A stretch of DNA of 61,135 bases, from assembly GCA_017463155.1 (NCBI GenBank), contig JAFTPT010000048.1:1-61135 (forward strand), written 5' to 3'. Positions 19,673 to 31,396 of the stretch are shown in pieces; within the stretch, counting starts at the first letter, position 1; each line of letters opens with the position of its first letter. The position numbers and the translations under genes are program-made. This DNA is from Blautia sp. (GTDB lineage: Bacteria > Bacillota > Clostridia > Lachnospirales > Lachnospiraceae). The notes beneath the pieces were generated by a model. That model had not been told where the DNA came from, searched no databases, and saw nothing but the letters and a program-made list of their open reading frames with translations.

Positions 19673-20584
19673 ATGTCAAAGTACCTGGTCAAGAGAATTC
19701 TCCTGGCGATCCTGAGTGTTTTCATCATCTGCCTGATCACCTTCTTCGCGATGAACGCGGTCCCGGGCGGACCGTTCAACTCCGAGAAGGCCACGTCCGA
19801 GGCCGTCAGGGCCGTCCTGATGGAACGCTTCAACCTGGACAAGCCCGTATGGCAGCAGTTCCTTATATATATGAGGAATCTCCTGCACGGTGATTTCGGG
19901 ATCTCCCTGAAGACCGGCCGTGATATCAGCTCCACGCTCTGGAGCTGCTTCAAGGTCTCCGCCTTCATCGGCGGCATCGCAGCCTTTTTCGCCGTGATCA
20001 TCGGCGTCATCCTGGGCGCGATCGCGGCACTGTTCCGCAACAAATGGCCGGACCGTGTGATCATCTTCTTCACGACCCTGTTTACGGCCATGCCGTCCTT
20101 CGTTTTCGCGACTCTTCTGCTGCTGGTATTCTGCATCCAGCTGAGAGTCCTGCCGGTCTGGAACCCGTCCGATCCGAACTACACGCTTCCGGTCATTGCC
20201 CTGGCTGCCTACCCGACAGCCTACGTGACCAGGCTTACCAAGACCAGTATGCTGGATTCCCTGGGGCAGGATTATATCCGGACCGCCAGGTCCAAGGGTG
20301 TTTCTACCATCAAGGTGATCTTCAAGCACGCCCTCAGGAACGCTCTTATCCCGGTCATCACCTATGTCGGCCCGATGCTTGCCTACATTCTGACCGGATC
20401 GCTGGTCGTCGAGAACATTTTCAGTATCGGCGGACTGGGCAAACAGTTCGTACAATCCATCACCAACCGGGATTACCCCCTGATCATGGCCACCACCATT
20501 TTCCTGGCCATCATCATGGTGCTGATGAACCTTCTCAGCGATATCCTTTACAAAGTAGTTGATCCGCGGATCAAACTTGACTAA
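19673..20584 (+). CDS. oppB: Oligopeptide ABC transporter permease OppB
   Basis: A 303-residue inner-membrane permease of the dipeptide/oligopeptide family. It shows the typical start (YLVKRILLAILSVFIICLITF), about six membrane segments and the EAA-loop region (DYIRTARSKGVSTIKVIFKHALRNALIPV) that contacts the ATPases. It ends with the family signature VDPRIK. It is the first gene of the opp operon; oppC starts 11 bp after its stop. Length and order match the canonical oppBCDF layout. Confidence 0.95.
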   Translation: MSKYLVKRILLAILSVFIICLITFFAMNAVPGGPFNSEKATSEAVRAVLMERFNLDKPVWQQFLIYMRNLLHGDFGISLKTGRDISSTLWSCFKVSAFIGGIAAFFAVIIGVILGAIAALFRNKWPDRVIIFFTTLFTAMPSFVFATLLLLVFCIQLRVLPVWNPSDPNYTLPVIALAAYPTAYVTRLTKTSMLDSLGQDYIRTARSKGVSTIKVIFKHALRNALIPVITYVGPMLAYILTGSLVVENIFSIGGLGKQFVQSITNRDYPLIMATTIFLAIIMVLMNLLSDILYKVVDPRIKLD

Positions 20585-20595
20585 GGAGGACTCCC

Positions 20596-21657
20596 ATGGA
20601 AATACCTAAAAAGAACGCTCTCAGCCTTCAGATCGACGTAAGCAAGTTCGAGAAGGCCACCGATGAAGAAAAAAGACAGCAGGATGTCATGAGCGAGTCC
20701 ACGACATTCTTCCGCGACGGCATGCGCAAGCTGATGAAGAACCCGCTGGCTGTCGGATCGCTGATCGTCCTTATCCTGGTCATCCTGACCATCATTATCG
20801 CACCGGTCGTCGTTCCCTACAGCTACTCGGACATCATCAAGGTCAACGGCCGCAGGGACAAGACCGCCAAGAACCTGTCTGCTTTTGAATATTCCAAAAA
20901 TGAACAGAAATACATGGATAAGACCGGCGAGAAGCTTTTCCCGCACATCATGGGAACGGATTCCCAGTGCCGTGACTACTTTATCCGTGTGGTGGAGGGC
21001 ACCAAGATCTCCCTGGTGGTAGGCCTGTTCGCCTCCATCCTCGTGCTGATCATCGGCGTCATATACGGCTCCATATCCGGCTATCTGGGCGGCAGGGTCG
21101 ACCTGGTCATGATGAGGATCGTCGACATTATATACTCCCTGCCGGATATGCTGATCATCATCCTGCTTTCCGTGGTGCTGAACGAGACGATGGCCGGTTC
21201 CCAGAACCCCATCATCCAGACCCTCGGTACCAACATGGTCTCGATCTTCGTCGTGTTCGGACTTCTGTACTGGGTCGGCATGGCCCGTCTGGTCCGCGGC
21301 GAGATCCTCAAGATCAAGAACAACGAATACATCCTCGCCGCCAAGGCCGTCGGGGCCGGCTCCGGCAGGATCATCCGTACCCATATCATTCCGAACTGTA
21401 TCAGCGTCATCATCATCACCACGGCGCTGCAGATCCCTTCCGCGATCTTTACCGAGAGCTTCCTTTCCTTCGTCGGAATGGGCGTCAAGGCTCCCATGCC
21501 TTCCCTCGGTTCCCTGGCCAACGCGGCCCGCGAAGGTCTGCAGAGCTATCCCATGCAGCTGGTTTTTCCTGCTGTCACGATCGTCCTGATCGTCCTGGCC
21601 TTCAACCTGCTCGGTGACGGGCTCCGCGACGCATTCGATCCGAAACTCAGGAGGTAA
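20596..21657 (+). CDS. oppC: Oligopeptide ABC transporter permease OppC
   Basis: A 353-residue second permease. The N-terminal cytoplasmic stretch (~50 residues) is followed by a membrane segment (VGSLIVLILVILTIIIAPVV), a periplasmic region with MGTDSQCRDYF and the permease domain. The EAA loop EYILAAKAVGAGSGRIIRTHI is clear, as is the end GDGLRDAFDPKLR typical of OppC. It is followed after 6 bp by oppD. It forms a heterodimer with OppB. Confidence 0.95.
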   Translation: MEIPKKNALSLQIDVSKFEKATDEEKRQQDVMSESTTFFRDGMRKLMKNPLAVGSLIVLILVILTIIIAPVVVPYSYSDIIKVNGRRDKTAKNLSAFEYSKNEQKYMDKTGEKLFPHIMGTDSQCRDYFIRVVEGTKISLVVGLFASILVLIIGVIYGSISGYLGGRVDLVMMRIVDIIYSLPDMLIIILLSVVLNETMAGSQNPIIQTLGTNMVSIFVVFGLLYWVGMARLVRGEILKIKNNEYILAAKAVGAGSGRIIRTHIIPNCISVIIITTALQIPSAIFTESFLSFVGMGVKAPMPSLGSLANAAREGLQSYPMQLVFPAVTIVLIVLAFNLLGDGLRDAFDPKLRR

Positions 21658-21663
21658 GCAAAG

Positions 21664-22692
21664 ATGGCAGATACAAACAACAATCAGAAAAAACCGCCGC
21701 TTCTGCAGGTCATCGACCTGCACACCTCCTTCACCACCGACAAAGGCGAGGTGCAGGCAGTCAACGGCGTCAGCTTTACACTGGAGGAGGGCAAGACCCT
21801 CGGCATCGTGGGAGAATCCGGTTCCGGCAAATCCGTCACCGCCTACTCCATCATGCAGATCCTGGAACAGAACGGCCATATCACCCAGGGCCAGATCCTT
21901 TTCCAGGGCGAAGACATCACCAAATATACCGTCAAACAGATGAACGTGTTCCGCGGGCAGAAATGCGCGATGATCTTTCAGGATCCCATGACATCCCTGA
22001 ACCCGGTCTACACCGTGGGCAACCAGATCGAGGAAGCGATCCTGATCCACTCCGACAAATCCAGGGCCGAAGCACACGCGGCGGCGCTTGAGATGCTGGA
22101 GCTGGTCGGCATCAACGATGCGGAGCGACGTATCAAACAGTATCCCCACGAGCTTTCCGGCGGCATGCGGCAGCGTGTCATGATCGCCATGGCCCTGGCA
22201 TCGGAGCCCTGGATCCTGATCGCCGACGAGCCGACCACCGCCCTGGACGTGACCATCCAGGCCCAGATCCTGGAGCTCATGCAGGATCTGCAGAAAAAGC
22301 TCGACATGGCCATCATCATCGTGACCCACGACCTGGGCGTGATCGCCCAGATGGCGGACGAGATCGTCGTCATGTACGGCGGCCGGATCTGCGAGCGCGG
22401 GACAGCGGACGATATCTTCTACCGTCCTTCCCACGAATACACCAAGGGACTGCTCCGCTCGATCCCCAACGTCAACAATATGAAGGAAAGGCTGATCCCC
22501 ATCTCGGGCACGCCGATCAACCTTCTCAACATGCCGAAAGGCTGTGCTTTCTGTCCCCGGTGCGACAATGCGATGAAGATCTGTCTGGAACAGGTTCCGC
22601 CGGAACTGAAGATGCCGGATGGACATTTCGCCTCCTGCTGGATGAATGTGAAGGATCACAACTATGTAGAGGAGGACACTGCAAATGAGTAA
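21664..22692 (+). CDS. oppD: Oligopeptide ABC transporter ATPase OppD
   Basis: A 342-residue cytoplasmic ATPase that powers peptide uptake. Walker A is GESGSGKS, the ABC signature LSGGMRQR, Walker [13 protein letters not shown] and the H-loop VTHDL. The C-terminal oligopeptide-transporter extension with Cys residues ([14 protein letters not shown]) is present and in relatives binds an Fe-S cluster or stabilises the dimer. Its end overlaps the oppF start by 8 bp, indicating translational coupling. Confidence 0.95.
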
Positions 22693-23662
22693 TACCACCC
22701 AAAACGAAAAGTATCTGGTGGAGGTACGCGATCTGCAGGAGCACTTCCCCATCAAGACGGGCTTCTTTAAGAAAAAGCTCTTAAAGGCTGTGGACGGCGT
22801 CAATTTTGCCATCAAGCCCGGCGAGACGCTGGGTCTTGTGGGTGAATCCGGCTGCGGCAAGACTACGGTCGGCCGTACGCTGCTGCACCTGTACAAGCCT
22901 ACCGGCGGCCAGATCTTCTTTGACGGCAACGAGGTCACCGAAAAGAACATTTACAACTACCGCAAGGAAATGCAGATGGTCTTCCAGGATCCGTATTCCT
23001 CGCTCGATCCCCGTATGACCGTCGAGGACATCATCGGCGAGCCGCTGGATGTCCACAAGCTGTATTCCTCCAAAGCGGAGCGACGCGACAAGATCCTCGA
23101 GCTGATGGGTCTTGTCGGCCTGAACGCCGAGCACGCCACCCGCTATGTCCACGAATTTTCAGGCGGCCAGCGCCAGAGGATCGGCATTGCCCGTGCCCTG
23201 GCGGTCAATCCCCGCTTTATCGTCTGTGATGAGCCTGTCTCCGCACTGGATGTTTCCATCCAGGCCCAGGTCATCAACATGTTCGAAGAACTCCAGGAAA
23301 AGCTTGGAGTCGCGTACCTTTTTATCGCGCACGATCTTCTGGTGGTACACCATATCTCCGACCGCATCGCGGTCATGTACCTGGGAAGGATCGTGGAGAC
23401 GGCGGATGCGGATGAGCTGAACGACAATCCCATCCACCCGTACACGCTTTCGCTGCTTTCGGCTGTGCCGGTCCCGGATCCCAATACGGCCAGGACACAG
23501 CAGCGCATCATTCTCGAAGGCGACGTACCCAGTCCGCTTTCCATGCCGTCAGGCTGTGCGTTCCGAACCCGCTGCCGTTATGCAACCGAGCAGTGCGCGA
23601 AGGAATGCCCGTCCCTGACCGACAGGGGAAACGGTCACCTGGTTGCGTGCTGGAATAAATAA
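22685..23662 (+). CDS. oppF: Oligopeptide ABC transporter ATPase OppF
   Basis: A 325-residue partner ATPase of OppD. It has Walker A GESGCGKT, the signature FSGGQRQR, Walker [13 protein letters not shown] and the H-loop [14 protein letters not shown], plus the C-terminal [14 protein letters not shown] extension. It overlaps oppD by 8 bp. The binding-protein gene starts 43 bp downstream with its own AGGAGG site. Confidence 0.95.
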
Positions 23663-23705
23663 TACCCTGGGGGAAACCCTGCAACATCAACAAGGAGGAA
23701 GAACT

Positions 23706-26700
23706 ATGAAAAAAAAGGTTTTGGCTCTTTTTCTTGCATCTGCAATGGCAGTGAGCATGCTGTCCGCCTGCGGTTCAAGCAAAGAAGCTGAAAAGAAGAC
23801 CGAGGAAGCCAAGGAAGCCGTCGAAGAAAAGGCTGAGGAAGCCGCCGACAAGGCCGAAGAGGCTGCTGAGGAAGTCAAGGAAGAAGCCACCGACGCTGCT
23901 GAGGAAGTCAAAGAAGAGGCGACTGACGCTGCCGAGGAAGTCAAAGAAGAAGCTGAAGAGGCCGTTGAAGGTGCTGAGGAGGCCGTCGAAGAGGCTGCCG
24001 ACGAAGCCACCGAAGCTGCTGAAGAAGTTGCTGACGCTGCCGAAGAGACTGCTGAGGAAGTCGCTGACGCCGCTGAAGAAGTAAAAGAAGAAGCTGCTGA
24101 GGCTGTCGGCGAAGCTGCCGACGCTGCCGAGGAAGCTGTTGAAGGTGCTGAGGAAGCCGTAGAAGAGGCTGCTGACGAAGCTACCGATGCCGCTGAAGAA
24201 GCCGTTGAGGGTGCTGAGGAAGCCGTAGAAGAAGCTGCTGACGAAGCTACCGATGCCGCTGAGGAAGTAGCTGACGAGGCCGCTGAGGCTGTCGAGGGCG
24301 CTGAGGAAGCTGTCGAAGAGGCTGCTGAAGAAGCTACCGATGCTGCTGAAGAAGTAGCTGAAGACGCCGCTGACGCCGCTGAGGAAGTCAAGGAAGACGC
24401 TGAAGAAGCTGTCGAAGAAGTAGCTGACGAGGCTGCTGACGCTGCTGAGGAAGTCAAAGAAGACGCCGCTGAGGCTGTCGAAGGTGCTGAGGAAGCTGTC
24501 GAAGAGGCTGCTGAAGAAGCTACCGATGCTGCTGAAGAAGTAGCTGAAGAAGCCGCTGACGCCGCTGAGGAAGTCAAGGAAGACGCTGAAGAAGCTGTCG
24601 AAGAAGTAGCTGACGAGGCTGCTGACGCTGCTGAGGAAGTCAAAGAAGACGCCGCTGAGGCTGTCGAAGAAGCCGCTGACGCCGCTGAGGAAGTCAAGGA
24701 AGACGCTGAGGAAGCCGTTGAAGAAGCTGCCGACGACGCCGCTGACGCTGCTGAGGAAGTCAAAGAAGACGCCGAGGAAGCTGTAGAAGAGGCTGCTGAC
24801 GCTGCCGAGGAAGCTGTTGAAGGTGCCGAGGAAGCCGTTGAAGAAGCTGCTGACGAGGCTGCTGACGCTGCTGAGGAAGTCAAGGAAGACGCCGAGGAAG
24901 CTGTCGAAGAAGCTGCTGACGCTGCTGAGGAAGTCAAAGAAGACGCTGAGGAAGCTGTCGAAGAAGCTGCTGACGAGGCCGCTGACGCTGCTGAGGAAGT
25001 CAAAGAAGACGCTGAGGAAGCTGTCGAAGAAGCTGCCGACGAGGCCGCTGACAAGGCTGAAGAAGCTGCTGACGAAGCCGCTGACAAGGCTGAAGAAGTT
25101 GCCGAAGACGCCGCTGACGCTGTCGAAGAAGCCAAGGACACTGTCGAGGGTGCTGTCGAAGAAGCCAAGGACGCGGTCGAAGGCGCTGTCGAGGAAGTCA
25201 AGGACGCCGCTGAAGAAGTTCAGGAAGAGGCTGCTGAGGCTGTCGGCGCTGCTGCTGACAAGGCCGAAGAGGCTGTTGGTGCTGTCGCTGCTGCCGGTAC
25301 CGCCGCTGCAGGCGCTGCTGTCGCTGCTGTAGGCGATGCTGCCGCTGCTGTCAAGGAAGACGCCGAAGAAGCTGCCGAAGGCATCAAAGAAGAGGCTGAG
25401 GACGCTGTTGAAGGCATCAAGGAAGATGTCGCCGAAGCCATCGGTGCTGCTGAGGATAAGGCTGACGAGGCTGAGGAAGCCGTTGAAGAAGCTGTCGACG
25501 AAGCTGCCGAGGAGGTCGAAGAGGCCGCTGACGAGGCTGCTGAAGAAGTCGAAGAAGCCGCCGACGAGGCTGCTGAGGAAGTCGAAGAAGCTGTCGACGA
25601 GGCTGAGGCCGAGGTTGCAGAAGCTGCTGAAGAAGCCGTCGAAGAGAAGGCTGAGGAAGCTGCTGAAGAGACCGAAGAAGCTGCTGAGCCCACCGGTTAT
25701 GCTTCCACCATCTATCCGGCCAACGTTGCTTACAAGGCTGCTTCCTACAACGAAGCTGCTCCGGACTGGACCGAATACACCGACCTGATCGCCCAGATCA
25801 AGGCCGAGACCGATATGGAAAAGCGTGTTGCCCTGATGCACGAAGCTGAGGATATCCTCATGGGCACCGCCGCTGTTATCCCGATCTACTACTACAACGA
25901 TATCTTCCTTCAGAAGGCAGACGTGGAAGGCATCTACTCCAACCTGTTTGGATTCAAGTTCTTCCAGTTCGCTACCACTCCGAGAGACGTTCTGAAGATC
26001 AACCTGGCGAGCGAGCCCGCAAAGGTTGACCCGGCTCTTAACTCCTCCGTCGACGGTGCCTGCCTGGCAGTCAACATGTTTGCCGGCCTGTACACCTACA
26101 ACGAAGAAGGCGCTCTGGAGCCCGACCTCTGCGATCCGGAGAATCCGTTTGAAATGTCCGAGGATGGCCTGGTTTACACCTTCCATCTGCAGGAAGGCCT
26201 GAAGTGGTCCGATGGTACGGACGTAACCGCCAAGGATTTCGAGTATGCCTGGAAGCGTGCCGCAGATCCCAAGACCGCTGCTGACTATGGTTACATGTTT
26301 GACTGCTTCGCTCTTGGCGATGACGGTCTCATCAATGTCGAAGCTACCGACGATCTGACACTGGTTGCTACCCTGAACGCTCCGTGTGCATACTTCCTTG
26401 ATCTCTGCGCATTCCCGGCTTACCTGCCGGTTCCGCAGGCACAGGTCGAGGCTGCTGCCGACTGGGAGACCAACCCGGGTTCCTGGGCTGCAGAGGCAGG
26501 CTTTGTCACCAACGGTGCTTACACCATGGATTCCTGGAAGCATGAAGAGTCCATCGTTCTGAAGAAGAACCCGAACTACCACAAGGCTGAACAGGTCAGC
26601 ATCGAAGAGATCGACCTGATGCTGAGCGCTGACGATACCGCCATCTACGCTGCATATCAGTCCGACGACCTTGATTTTGCTGATACTGTACCGACCAACG

Positions 26701-27410
26701 AGATCCAGAACCTTCTGGACAACCCGGAATTCCACATCATCGACAACCTGGGCACCTACTATGCTGCATTCAACGTAAACAGCCCGATCTTTGAAGGCAA
26801 GACCGTTGACCAGGCCATCGCTATGAGAAAGGCATTCGCAATCCTGATCGACCGTGCTTACATCGTTGAGAACGTAGGCCAGACCGGTCAGAAGGTCGCA
26901 ACCTCCTACATTCCGGCCGGAATGGCTGACGGAAACGGCGGCGTATTCAAGGCCAACACCGACGCTTACACCTTCCCGAACGAAGAGTTCGAAGGCTACT
27001 ATCCGGAGTATCCGGACGGTGTCGAAGATGAAGCGATCGAAGAAGCCATCGCTCTTCTTGAGTATGCAGGCTATGAGTTCGAGGACGGCGTTCTTTCCGA
27101 CGCTACCCCGATCAGCATCAAGTACCTCACCAACGACGGAACCGGCCACATCGCTGTTGCAGAAGCCATGCAGCAGGATTTCGCGGAGATCGGCATCGAC
27201 ATGAGCATCGAGACCCGTGAGTGGAACGTATTCCTGGATGAGAGAAAAGACGGCCAGTTCGACTTCGCTCGTGAAGGCTGGCTTGCAGACTTCAACGACC
27301 CGATCAACATGCTTGAGATGTGGACTCCGCAGTCCGGCAATAACGACTGCCAGTTTGGTAAAGAAGTAGTTGCTGCCACGGAAGAAGCTGAAGAAGAAGC
27401 TGCTGAATAA
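23706..27410 (+). CDS. Peptide-binding lipoprotein with long E/A repeat and apparently circularly permuted SBP domain
   Basis: A 1,234-residue lipoprotein: signal peptide MKKKVLALFLASAMAVSMLS, lipobox LSAC with Cys24. Residues ~27-660 are an E/A/V/D/K repeat. Residues ~661-758 match the usual C-terminal part of family-5 peptide-binding proteins (D-RVALMHEAEDILM, VIPIYYYNDIFL, GFKFFQFA). Residues 759-1219 begin like the mature N-terminus (VLKINLASEPAKVDPALNSS) and run through SDGTDVTAKDFEYAWKR, KKNPNYHK, GTYYAAFN, FAILIDRAYIV, EWNVFLDERKDGQFDFAREGW to SGNNDCQFGK. The protein then ends in an acidic tail. The C-lobe strand thus comes before the N-lobe, a circular permutation. The ATG at 23706 follows AAGGAGGAAGAACT. 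No other oppA is seen in this operon, so this is presumed to be its receptor. Confidence 0.85.
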   Translation: MKKKVLALFLASAMAVSMLSACGSSKEAEKKTEEAKEAVEEKAEEAADKAEEAAEEVKEEATDAAEEVKEEATDAAEEVKEEAEEAVEGAEEAVEEAADEATEAAEEVADAAEETAEEVADAAEEVKEEAAEAVGEAADAAEEAVEGAEEAVEEAADEATDAAEEAVEGAEEAVEEAADEATDAAEEVADEAAEAVEGAEEAVEEAAEEATDAAEEVAEDAADAAEEVKEDAEEAVEEVADEAADAAEEVKEDAAEAVEGAEEAVEEAAEEATDAAEEVAEEAADAAEEVKEDAEEAVEEVADEAADAAEEVKEDAAEAVEEAADAAEEVKEDAEEAVEEAADDAADAAEEVKEDAEEAVEEAADAAEEAVEGAEEAVEEAADEAADAAEEVKEDAEEAVEEAADAAEEVKEDAEEAVEEAADEAADAAEEVKEDAEEAVEEAADEAADKAEEAADEAADKAEEVAEDAADAVEEAKDTVEGAVEEAKDAVEGAVEEVKDAAEEVQEEAAEAVGAAADKAEEAVGAVAAAGTAAAGAAVAAVGDAAAAVKEDAEEAAEGIKEEAEDAVEGIKEDVAEAIGAAEDKADEAEEAVEEAVDEAAEEVEEAADEAAEEVEEAADEAAEEVEEAVDEAEAEVAEAAEEAVEEKAEEAAEETEEAAEPTGYASTIYPANVAYKAASYNEAAPDWTEYTDLIAQIKAETDMEKRVALMHEAEDILMGTAAVIPIYYYNDIFLQKADVEGIYSNLFGFKFFQFATTPRDVLKINLASEPAKVDPALNSSVDGACLAVNMFAGLYTYNEEGALEPDLCDPENPFEMSEDGLVYTFHLQEGLKWSDGTDVTAKDFEYAWKRAADPKTAADYGYMFDCFALGDDGLINVEATDDLTLVATLNAPCAYFLDLCAFPAYLPVPQAQVEAAADWETNPGSWAAEAGFVTNGAYTMDSWKHEESIVLKKNPNYHKAEQVSIEEIDLMLSADDTAIYAAYQSDDLDFADTVPTNEIQNLLDNPEFHIIDNLGTYYAAFNVNSPIFEGKTVDQAIAMRKAFAILIDRAYIVENVGQTGQKVATSYIPAGMADGNGGVFKANTDAYTFPNEEFEGYYPEYPDGVEDEAIEEAIALLEYAGYEFEDGVLSDATPISIKYLTNDGTGHIAVAEAMQQDFAEIGIDMSIETREWNVFLDERKDGQFDFAREGWLADFNDPINMLEMWTPQSGNNDCQFGKEVVAATEEAEEEAAE
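23784..25685 (+). repeat. Hendecad-like E/A-rich repeat within the peptide-binding lipoprotein
   Basis: About 1.9 kb encode alternating 11-residue units such as EEVKEDAEEAV and EEAADEAADAA, often pairing as 22-residue blocks. Eleven-residue Ala/Glu/Lys periodicity is typical of long single alpha-helices, right-handed coiled coils and LEA-type proteins. The DNA is strongly repetitive and has no stops on the antisense strand either, a composition effect. Confidence 0.85.
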
Positions 27411-28600: not shown

Positions 28601-31396
28601 ATGACTTTGAAGAAACGCCTGTCCGGCTTGTGCCTGATCTTTACACTGCTAGTACCCACCCTTACGGTCCTGGCGGAAACCGCCGGGCCGGATACCGCGG
28701 AGGAAACGGCTGCGGAAGCGCCGGATACCGCCGAGGAAGCGCCGGATACGGACGCTGCAGAAACTATCTTTCCGGAGGGACAGCTGTCACCGGAAGATAT
28801 TTCCGCCCTCAATAGCGGCGCGGAGAAGATTTTCTCCCATGACGGCCGTGTTACGTTCATCGACGGAACCTGCACGGACAAGCCCGTGACCAGCGCGGAG
28901 GAAGCCTCCGCCGTCATCGACTCCGTACGGACCATGATCGGTGCGGACGAGGACACGGAGTTTATCCCCTGGCATGAGGTGACCGATCCTCTTGGAAACA
29001 TCTATTATATCTTCCAGCAGATGTACGGCGATACGACCGTCTGCGGCGGCGCCGTCAAGGTGATTACCGACGCCGACGGAAACATGATCGCCCTCTCCGG
29101 CAGTGTGGAATCCGAAATGCCGGATAAGGCCACCGAGGAAGGCATCACGGCGGAGGAAGCCGAACAGGTCGTTCTCGAGACCGAATACAAGCAGACCGGC
29201 ATCCGTCCGGAGATCCTGGCCGGATACACCGACAAGGTGATCCTGCCGGTCGTCATGGACTTTGATATCGAAAATGAGGATTATTCCAACCGGTTTGTCT
29301 GGGCTGTCTACACCGGCAGTCTCCCCGGAAGCGGCCGGGAAAGCGCCGAGCTTCCCTATCTGGCCCACTATGTCTCCATGTCCGGCGAGTACCTGTACAA
29401 CATGCCGGCCATTCTTCCCGGCGACGAAGCCGGCCAGGCAGGCTTTGATTCCAGCTACGTCTTCGAGTTCATGGTGCCGGCCGAGTATACCGGCTACGTG
29501 GATATGAGCGACGGCAGCGAAAAAGAGATCACCGTGACCGTCATGCGAGACAAGCGTACCGGCATGTATTATCTTGGCAACATCGAGCGCAGGATCCTGA
29601 TCGGGCAAAACTATGATTTTCTCTTTAACGACGGACAGGTCGTTCTGGAATCGAGTCCGGACAACCGGGAATGGGATCAGGTCGGCCTCCTTTCGCTGTA
29701 CAATTACTGCCGGGCCTATGACTACTACAGCGCGATCGGCCTCACCAGCCCCGACGGCGATAACACGCCGATCCTCATCCTCAATAATTACTGCGACGAC
29801 CACTACAACGAGATCAACAATGCCTGCTATATCGGAAAGATCCATGGCATGCAGTGCTTTGCGGCCAGCAAGATCAATGATTACTCCCAGTGTCTGGATG
29901 TCATTACCCATGAATTCACGCACTGTGTGACAGGCTCCCTGATGACCTACAGCTCCTACACGAACGACTATGGCGCCATCAACGAGGCTCTGAGTGATAT
30001 CCAGGGCAAAAACAGCGCGATCATAGCCGGTGATTCAGAGCCCACCGACTGGGTGATGGGCAACAGGAGCCAGACCCCCGTCCGGAATATGGCTGAGCCG
30101 CATCAATCCAACCAGCCCGAATTCACATGGGATCTGTACTACCAGGCAAAGGTCGGAACTCCTACCACCCTGAATGACCACGGCGGTGTCCACACCAATT
30201 CCTCCCTGCTCAACCGGGTCGCATACCTGCTGCAGACGGACGGACAGATGACCCCGGAGGAAGCCCGGATCTACTGGTTCATGGTGGACTGCGTCATCGT
30301 TCCCCAGACGGATTACCTGCAGCTCTCGGAGCTTCTGCCATGGGTCCTGAAGGCAGCCGGGATGGAGAAATATACGGAGGTTCTCGCCGAGGCGATCGAT
30401 CTGACACGTCTTGGTGCAGACACCATGCCCGAAAGCATGGAGGACGACCGCGCCATCCTCACGCTGACCCTTCCGGATACCGAGGCCTTTGACGCAGAAA
30501 ACTGGGCACTGCAATTCCTGAGCGTCCGTTTTGACGATCTTTTTGCCTGGGCCTCGACCCTCTTTACCGAGGTCATGAATGAAGATTACTCCCGTCTTCC
30601 GGAATCCCTGCAGCAGGTGATCATCGAAACGAAAGCTTCCTCCGACGCCGAAGGATCCGGACAATCCGGGGAATCAGAAGACCTGTTCTCCGTTATCCTC
30701 TCGTCGGCGGTAGATATCATTACGAGTCTGACGGACGAGAATTCCACGGAGGAACCCGATGCAGAGCCTCTGTCCGAAGAGGAAGCGGCAATGCAGAGCG
30801 AAGAAAAAGCAAAAGAGGATCATCTCCTGGCTGACGCACAGACCTGGCTGCAGAAGGAACTCTTCCAGTTTATCTTCAACTCCAGCGCATCCATGGGACA
30901 GGACGGCAACACGATCAAGATGGTCGTCCCGTCCGGACACGCGATCCCGATCCTGACCCATGCAGTCGTATCCGACCTGGATACGGTCCCGGATCAGCTT
31001 GTCTACGCCCTCTACCTGAACGGCAAATGGTATGATCTGAAGTTCGGTCAGGACAGCGGTGACTTTGCATACGACCAGATCTTAACGGATCTGCTTGAAG
31101 AATTCATAAACAGGTTCAAAGATTTCAAGGGTATCGAGGATGTCCTGAATCTGCTCACCCTTGACGTCAAGGGCGGCGAGGTGCTGGAGCTCTCCTCCAC
31201 GGGACTCGAGCAGATCAACATTCCGGAACCCACTCCCAAGGACGAGAAGGAGTATGCGGTGATCGAACCCGGTCCCAAATCCCGTCCCAAGGTCGAGGAA
31301 GATACCGCGAACGCGGACACGACGGACGCGGACGCAGCCGACACCAAAACCGGGGATGCGGACAGCACTGACGACGCACTGGCCGACGCCGCGTAA
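28601..31396 (+). CDS. Secreted M4 (thermolysin-family) zinc metallopeptidase
   Basis: A 931-residue exported protease. A signal peptide (~1-26, ending TVLAET) is followed by an acidic Thr/Glu/Ala linker and a propeptide of FTP/PepSY type (~60-250; GNIYYIFQQMYGDTTVCGG and the TEEGITAEEAEQV helix). The catalytic domain has the zinc motif HEFTH at 437-441, the third ligand Glu462 in NEALSD and the transition-state His531 in GGVHTNSSLLNRVAYLL. These are all hallmarks of family M4. The ~300-residue C-terminal extension has no family I recognise and ends in an Asp/Ala/Thr-rich tail. It probably degrades extracellular protein to feed the Opp system (inference from adjacency). Confidence 0.9.
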   Translation: MTLKKRLSGLCLIFTLLVPTLTVLAETAGPDTAEETAAEAPDTAEEAPDTDAAETIFPEGQLSPEDISALNSGAEKIFSHDGRVTFIDGTCTDKPVTSAEEASAVIDSVRTMIGADEDTEFIPWHEVTDPLGNIYYIFQQMYGDTTVCGGAVKVITDADGNMIALSGSVESEMPDKATEEGITAEEAEQVVLETEYKQTGIRPEILAGYTDKVILPVVMDFDIENEDYSNRFVWAVYTGSLPGSGRESAELPYLAHYVSMSGEYLYNMPAILPGDEAGQAGFDSSYVFEFMVPAEYTGYVDMSDGSEKEITVTVMRDKRTGMYYLGNIERRILIGQNYDFLFNDGQVVLESSPDNREWDQVGLLSLYNYCRAYDYYSAIGLTSPDGDNTPILILNNYCDDHYNEINNACYIGKIHGMQCFAASKINDYSQCLDVITHEFTHCVTGSLMTYSSYTNDYGAINEALSDIQGKNSAIIAGDSEPTDWVMGNRSQTPVRNMAEPHQSNQPEFTWDLYYQAKVGTPTTLNDHGGVHTNSSLLNRVAYLLQTDGQMTPEEARIYWFMVDCVIVPQTDYLQLSELLPWVLKAAGMEKYTEVLAEAIDLTRLGADTMPESMEDDRAILTLTLPDTEAFDAENWALQFLSVRFDDLFAWASTLFTEVMNEDYSRLPESLQQVIIETKASSDAEGSGQSGESEDLFSVILSSAVDIITSLTDENSTEEPDAEPLSEEEAAMQSEEKAKEDHLLADAQTWLQKELFQFIFNSSASMGQDGNTIKMVVPSGHAIPILTHAVVSDLDTVPDQLVYALYLNGKWYDLKFGQDSGDFAYDQILTDLLEEFINRFKDFKGIEDVLNLLTLDVKGGEVLELSSTGLEQINIPEPTPKDEKEYAVIEPGPKSRPKVEEDTANADTTDADAADTKTGDADSTDDALADAA

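Follow-up and report, generated by a model that had tools for sequence, protein, structure and literature searches.

The stretch of DNA analysed here (the window) is the complete 61,135-nucleotide Blautia sp. contig JAFTPT010000048.1, number C44 among the 55 contigs of a 3.07 Mb draft genome. On its forward strand it encodes a 1234-residue protein (open reading frame (ORF) 23706-27410; ATG at 23706, stop at 27408-27410) that we interpret, with a probability of about 0.85, as an oligopeptide-binding lipoprotein of family 5 (cluster C) that has undergone circular permutation in nature and works with the OppBCDF importer encoded directly upstream. Gene order, conservation, predicted fold and operon context are presented for this interpretation. 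The old termini are fused by a short linker and the new termini are opened within one loop, between QFG[RK] and AAPDW, with the last ~73 residues of the canonical protein now at the front of the domain.

The Pfam model PF00496 (SBP_bac_5) matches residues 815-1213 far above its cut-off (2.7e-78, 264 bits against 32.4) and places the protein among the SBP_bac_5/cluster C oligopeptide-binding proteins. The usual segment order of this family leaves ~80-120 residues after the Pfam match. Here only 21 residues separate the match from the stop, compared with 79-121 in nine other PF00496 proteins of the same genome (in the two longest of these tails the match ends before the profile does), which identifies a permuted variant rather than an ordinary member. 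The matching binding-protein models of NCBIfam all score far under their cut-offs for this protein. A single chain holds two segments that are both homologous to the same canonical protein but stand in the reverse of its order: query residues 99-554 align with residues 19-450 of Bacillus subtilis OppA (8are), and query residues 28-92 with OppA 455-519 (independent E-value (i-Evalue) 1.3e-4). The displaced block also matches residues 451-515 of DppE (8ay0; i-Evalue 4e-10). This displaced C-part (residues 686-758) comprises two helices and the VIPIYYYNDIFLQ strand. An initial annotation, made from the DNA letters, had proposed the permutation, with the old termini joined and new ones opened in a loop ahead of the C-terminal segment, and the alignments bear out all of these, the join being short. 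One small adjustment concerns the old N-terminus: VLKINLASEP begins at residue 762, after the linker PRD, and not at 759.

Structure prediction gave a confident monomer with an OppA-type bilobed fold (predicted TM-score (pTM) 0.87; predicted local distance difference test (pLDDT) 90-96 in ten-residue blocks spanning model residues 21-100). The best fold matches among those listed are OppA/DppA-type proteins; no cluster B (Type I) protein is among the listed matches, and absence from such a list excludes nothing. Asp1195 is invariant and aligns with OppA D419, the residue that holds the peptide N-terminus. The cognate oppBCDF genes (19673-23662) precede the receptor gene. Of the 80 permuted loci described below, 77 have oppF no more than 3 kb before the receptor gene, the remaining three lie at contig edges, and a complete B, C, D and F set is present in 71. 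Operon, invariant aspartate and predicted fold together point to peptide uptake; the permuted receptor would bind peptides in its cleft and pass them to OppBC as OppA does.

The permutation is a trait of a widespread family and not of one gene. A first search of 41 genomes (the window's own and 40 relatives) identified three further single-ORF permuted genes, and a contig scan of 84,980 species genomes yielded 428 relatives, of which the best 80 are considered here; all 80 are permuted. The record titles of these 80 comprise 76 Bacillota, with 56 Lachnospiraceae, and 4 Chloroflexota. Carriers include Eisenbergiella porci, Roseburia sp. 1XD42-69, Proteiniclasticum aestuarii and Murimonas intestini, the last in a record flagged UNVERIFIED_CONTAM. 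Of 64 genomes in the genus, 13 carry the permuted form, the window's own included (one gene, in G058, is truncated at a contig end and was left unclassed). So do 27 of 397 genomes drawn evenly from the family, one with an internal TAG, and 1 of 398 from the phylum, namely the window's own genome. The family and phylum counts are lower bounds, since these censuses required E <= 1e-120 and limited scoring to three candidates in each genome.

Some individual loci are notable. At L190 (G349), in a single-contig genome, the permuted gene is broken by a single TAG. In one protein (L072 499-3333, G069) a permuted solute-binding protein (SBP) occurs together with an apparent transmembrane helix and a Ser/Thr kinase domain (PF00069, 1.6e-36), and the whole looks like a receptor kinase with a peptide-binding ectodomain; a literature search found no SBP and kinase combination. 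The operons at L091 and L098 (also L101 and L110) come from metagenome-assembled genomes (MAGs) titled Chloroflexi or Anaerolineaceae. Those at L091 and L098, the two included in the trees, cluster with permuted Clostridiales genes in both receptor and transporter trees, a placement that suggests operon transfer, or misbinning.

The cut site is highly uniform. In 80 permuted ORFs from named loci, with the N-part model ending at QFG[RK], no residue follows the model match in 67 and one residue follows in 6; L057, counted among the 67, is truncated on its 3' side by the contig end, and the ORF of L073, identical to that of L013, was removed before counting. The new N-terminus starts mostly near [A/S]xAPDW, and the linker at the old termini is 0-6 residues long across permuted ORFs. 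By alignment the cut maps to approximately residues 440-446 of Escherichia coli OppA. Close relatives of canonical order occupy the same oppBCDF-A slot and reach 59-73% N-part identity to permuted ones; the most similar mixed pair among those compared is permuted L209 with canonical L177, at 73% identity over the N-part and 66% over the C-part. Most near canonical genes (L177-L187) have a loop of Q[FL]GK, then 1-4 residues, then a stretch ending in AP-x-W, which in sequence resembles a fusion of the two permuted termini. L188 is an exception, and in more distant canonical genes the loop is either tight (NNDAQW-SNAEYD) or 18-25 residues long (L192-L196). The lipid anchor of canonical OppA leaves from domain I; in the permuted receptor the N-terminal tether would leave from the C-terminal instead of the N-terminal lobe, a different mooring.

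Permutation by duplication, a described route (PMC3320104), is plausible here given tandem copies and fused doubles. Two permuted genes lie in tandem at L082, and a partial copy adjoins a full one at L112. Fused doubles with two permuted SBP units per chain occur at L091 (7581-11450), L110 and L163 (362-5122), two of them from Chloroflexota MAGs and the third from a member of the window's genus. All of these tandem genes and fused doubles consist of the permuted form. The permutation may have originated when oppA was duplicated in tandem within the operon and the copies fused and lost their outer parts, and a fused double, which has a canonical N-C pair inside, would offer an easy way back to the usual order.

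A first receptor tree (93 rows clustered from 147, with several long branches) required five topology changes, three of them forced. It was rebuilt from 60 of the 93 rows, after 10 long or far rows were removed and 23 permuted rows were thinned by hand; all trees are quick ones with support from the Shimodaira-Hasegawa-like approximate likelihood ratio test (SH-aLRT) only. The rejoined receptor tree (60 rows) requires four changes, three forced by starred branches, against 19 with shuffled labels, and rejects a single permuted clade (log-likelihood 135.6 lower, p 1.9e-4). An OppBCDF tree (57 rows, 1303 columns, without L211, L215 and L107) requires three changes, all forced, against 17 with shuffled labels, and also rejects a single permuted clade (169.5 lower, p 1.8e-66). 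On both trees together, the receptor of one operon has probably switched between canonical and permuted forms three times or more, each time at the same loop and perhaps in both directions, which would have moved the tether between lobes with fold and partner transporter unchanged. A single origin, with the scattered canonical genes due to gene exchange or tree error, is unlikely in view of these rejections and of the identity between L209 and L177. Most of the family may nevertheless share one origin: without four late permuted rows (L209, L211, L215 and L216), the remaining 31 permuted receptors fit a single clade (constrained tree better by 5.8 log units, p 0.61), a result that would imply separate gains. 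In the transporter tree, which holds two of the four late rows, the analogous one-clade arrangement (35 rows) is rejected at p 0.012, which would favour gain plus reversions, or receptor gene exchange. Both row groups were named after the trees were inspected, so that their p values are weaker than they look. A shared N-terminal extension is a weak and mixed sign of common permuted origin: out of 300 shuffles, 101 reach its score for L209, 44 for L216 and 122 for L215 (not above shuffles), against 5 for L211.

Could the unusual order stem from faulty assembly or binning, or from two neighbouring genes mistaken for a single one? The window comes from a draft and has a long repeat inside, and the nearest relative, L042, breaks off at a contig end within the Glu/Ala repeat. 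However, all 80 kept loci of other assemblies have the same order, including AP025576.1 (L118), titled a complete genome, as does the single-contig genome G264, and 64 other alignment rows are 48-81% identical to the window protein. These orthologues refute an artefact and leave it a negligible probability; the initial annotation had already argued against a repeat-driven assembly error. A domain-swapped oligomer, in which the C-part packs on a neighbouring molecule and the working unit is a dimer or chain, is improbable, although the shortness of the linkers between C-part and N-part speaks for it and the related AliC has a domain-swapped dimer, according to the title of 8qlh. The internal canonical N-C pairs of the fused doubles (L091, L110 and L163) also speak for it. 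Against it stands the confidence of the monomer model, and the old termini adjoin each other in lobe I of OppA, so a short link would be enough.

Several points weigh against the permutant interpretation or parts of it. Fold aligners follow sequence order, and model residues 1-93 fall outside all but one of 50 listed fold alignments; the placement of the C-part in the fold is thus predicted indirectly. The proposed move of the tether to the other lobe depends on assigning OppA residues ~440-446 to domain III, the C-terminal lobe. By pattern, no lipobox is found in 25 of the 98 permuted proteins with a start found (L013, L014, L015, L053, L055, L056, L059, L069, L071, L074, L097, L101, L102, L103, L106, L107, L115, L125-L127, L130, L134, L163, L203 and L204), so that the anchor argument covers part of the family only; the same pattern finds none in 14 of 41 canonical proteins. 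Among the ORFs examined there is no half-way intermediate (C-N-C or N-C-N), which leaves permutation by duplication plausible only, not demonstrated.

The window protein also carries the long hendecad stretch, short Glu/Ala tail (residues 1220-1234) and lipoprotein anchor (LSAC lipobox, Cys22) that the initial annotation described. The stalk, residues 23-660 (638 residues), contains 224 Ala and 222 Glu, no proline and a net charge of -252; its hydrophobic period of 3.65 residues is consistent with hendecads, and Tandem Repeats Finder (TRF) reports 33-bp units, among others. In the window lineage an amphipathic Ala/Glu helix, up to ~96 nm long if straight, would be inserted between lipid and receptor; it may raise the receptor above its anchor, as the initial annotation suggested. 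Synonymous pairs use the same codon in 189 of 326 cases at lag 11 (188 expected) and 218 of 330 at lag 22 (191 expected), and third positions account for 406 of the 681 base differences at lag 11. This mixing of codons and concentration of differences indicate that the helix pattern was kept while the DNA drifted; the pattern looks old and kept at the protein level. Matches of the stalk over the cut-offs of Pfam Apolipoprotein (102.5 bits; cut-off 90), ApoLp-III (49.7; 36.3) and YtxH (42.3; 37.5) and of the NCBIfam Ag473 lipoprotein model (106.6; 100) were taken as composition matches of a charged helix, and membership was rejected.

A census of spacers covers those 98 of 107 permuted ORFs (near-duplicates counted) for which a start was found; the window protein, L042 and L086 lie outside the 98, and the value for L110 takes in its first SBP unit. 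The median spacer is 39 residues in these and 23 in 41 canonical proteins, the longest of which has 52. Further long stalks rich in Ala and Glu occur at L042 (~270 residues, cut by the contig end), L086 (~250) and L098 (~195), in the set examined among permuted members only. Most permuted members are without one, which makes the stalk an add-on and not the cause of the permutation; it is a separate, lineage-specific expansion. That the long stalk is functionless, mere repeat growth, is possible but doubtful: near relatives (L043, L052 and L057) have short spacers and the composition is simple, but codons at lag 11 are mixed as usage predicts with a retained helix pattern, and long Ala/Glu/Val-rich stalks recur in L086 and L098.

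Table 1. Coordinates of the receptor gene's segments and of its operon in the window.
Feature	Position	Strand	Basis
oppB-like permease	19673..20584	+	PF00528 1.9e-45, PF19300
oppC-like permease	20596..21657	+	PF00528 5.4e-33, PF12911 OppC_N
oppD-like ATPase	21664..22692	+	PF00005, PF08352
oppF-like ATPase	22685..23662	+	PF00005, PF08352
AGGAGG ribosome-binding site, seven bases 5' of ATG	23693..23698	+	sequence
Lipoprotein signal peptide, residues 1-21, and lipobox Cys22 (LSAC)	23706..23771	+	sequence
Ala/Glu hendecad stalk, residues 23-661	23772..25688	+	composition, period, 33-bp repeats, codon use
Short non-repeat spacer, residues 662-685	25689..25760	+	sequence
C-part, displaced OppA C-terminal segment, residues 686-758	25761..25979	+	alignment to OppA 455-519 and DppE 451-515; pLDDT
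PRD linker between old C-terminus and old N-terminus	25980..25988	+	sequence alignment
N-part, OppA N-terminal and middle part, residues 762-1219, last residues SGNNDCQFGK	25989..27362	+	
Short Glu/Ala tail, residues 1220-1234, plus stop	27363..27410	+	sequence

Downstream of the receptor gene by 1.2 kb is an apparently secreted, thermolysin-like M4 peptidase with HEFTH (28601-31396), which may supply the adjacent peptide importer. Opposite the receptor gene, an antisense open frame (23775-27149, reverse strand, 1124 residues) is probably a by-product of the Ala/Glu codon pattern.

Natural circular permutations are, to our knowledge, mostly ancient single events that lack a close canonical sister. 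In this family the same operon slot holds permuted and canonical orthologues of up to 73% identity, and such close pairs make the cause, route and cost of permutation directly testable. The family is a natural experiment in re-wiring proteins while their shape stays, and should the tether indeed now leave from the other lobe, it tests the effect of anchoring geometry on import by ATP-binding cassette (ABC) transporters. There is also an annotation blind spot, because PF00496 models only the middle of the domain and its match cannot reveal the swap. No permuted OppA-class protein was found in the literature searched, mainly openly licensed papers, and the words 'solute' and 'transporter' are absent from the main text of a large-scale permutation survey (PMC12667903).

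OppA and DppE of B. subtilis (cluster C, PF00496; 8are, 8arn, 8ay0) share family and fold with the window protein, at 32-33% identity over the aligned N-part, and are likewise oligopeptide-importer receptors. They have the usual order, whereas the window protein places its last ~73 residues first and adds a 638-residue stalk. Fused or tandem SBP domains also exist in importers, and these resemble the doubles at L091, L110 and L163, whose units are each permuted. A natural circular permutant of a tethered ABC-importer SBP is TpMglB-2 (Tp0684) of Treponema pallidum, for which the authors propose the name 'Type Ic / cluster Bc' and suggest a possible link to anchoring (PMC4990184). As described there, TpMglB-2 is a glucose SBP of Type I, cluster B, whereas the window protein belongs to cluster C; its first three N-lobe strands have moved, and the swapped part is 13% identical to its counterpart. 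Unlike TpMglB-2, the window protein has a clearly homologous C-part and canonical orthologues at 59-73% identity in the N-part.
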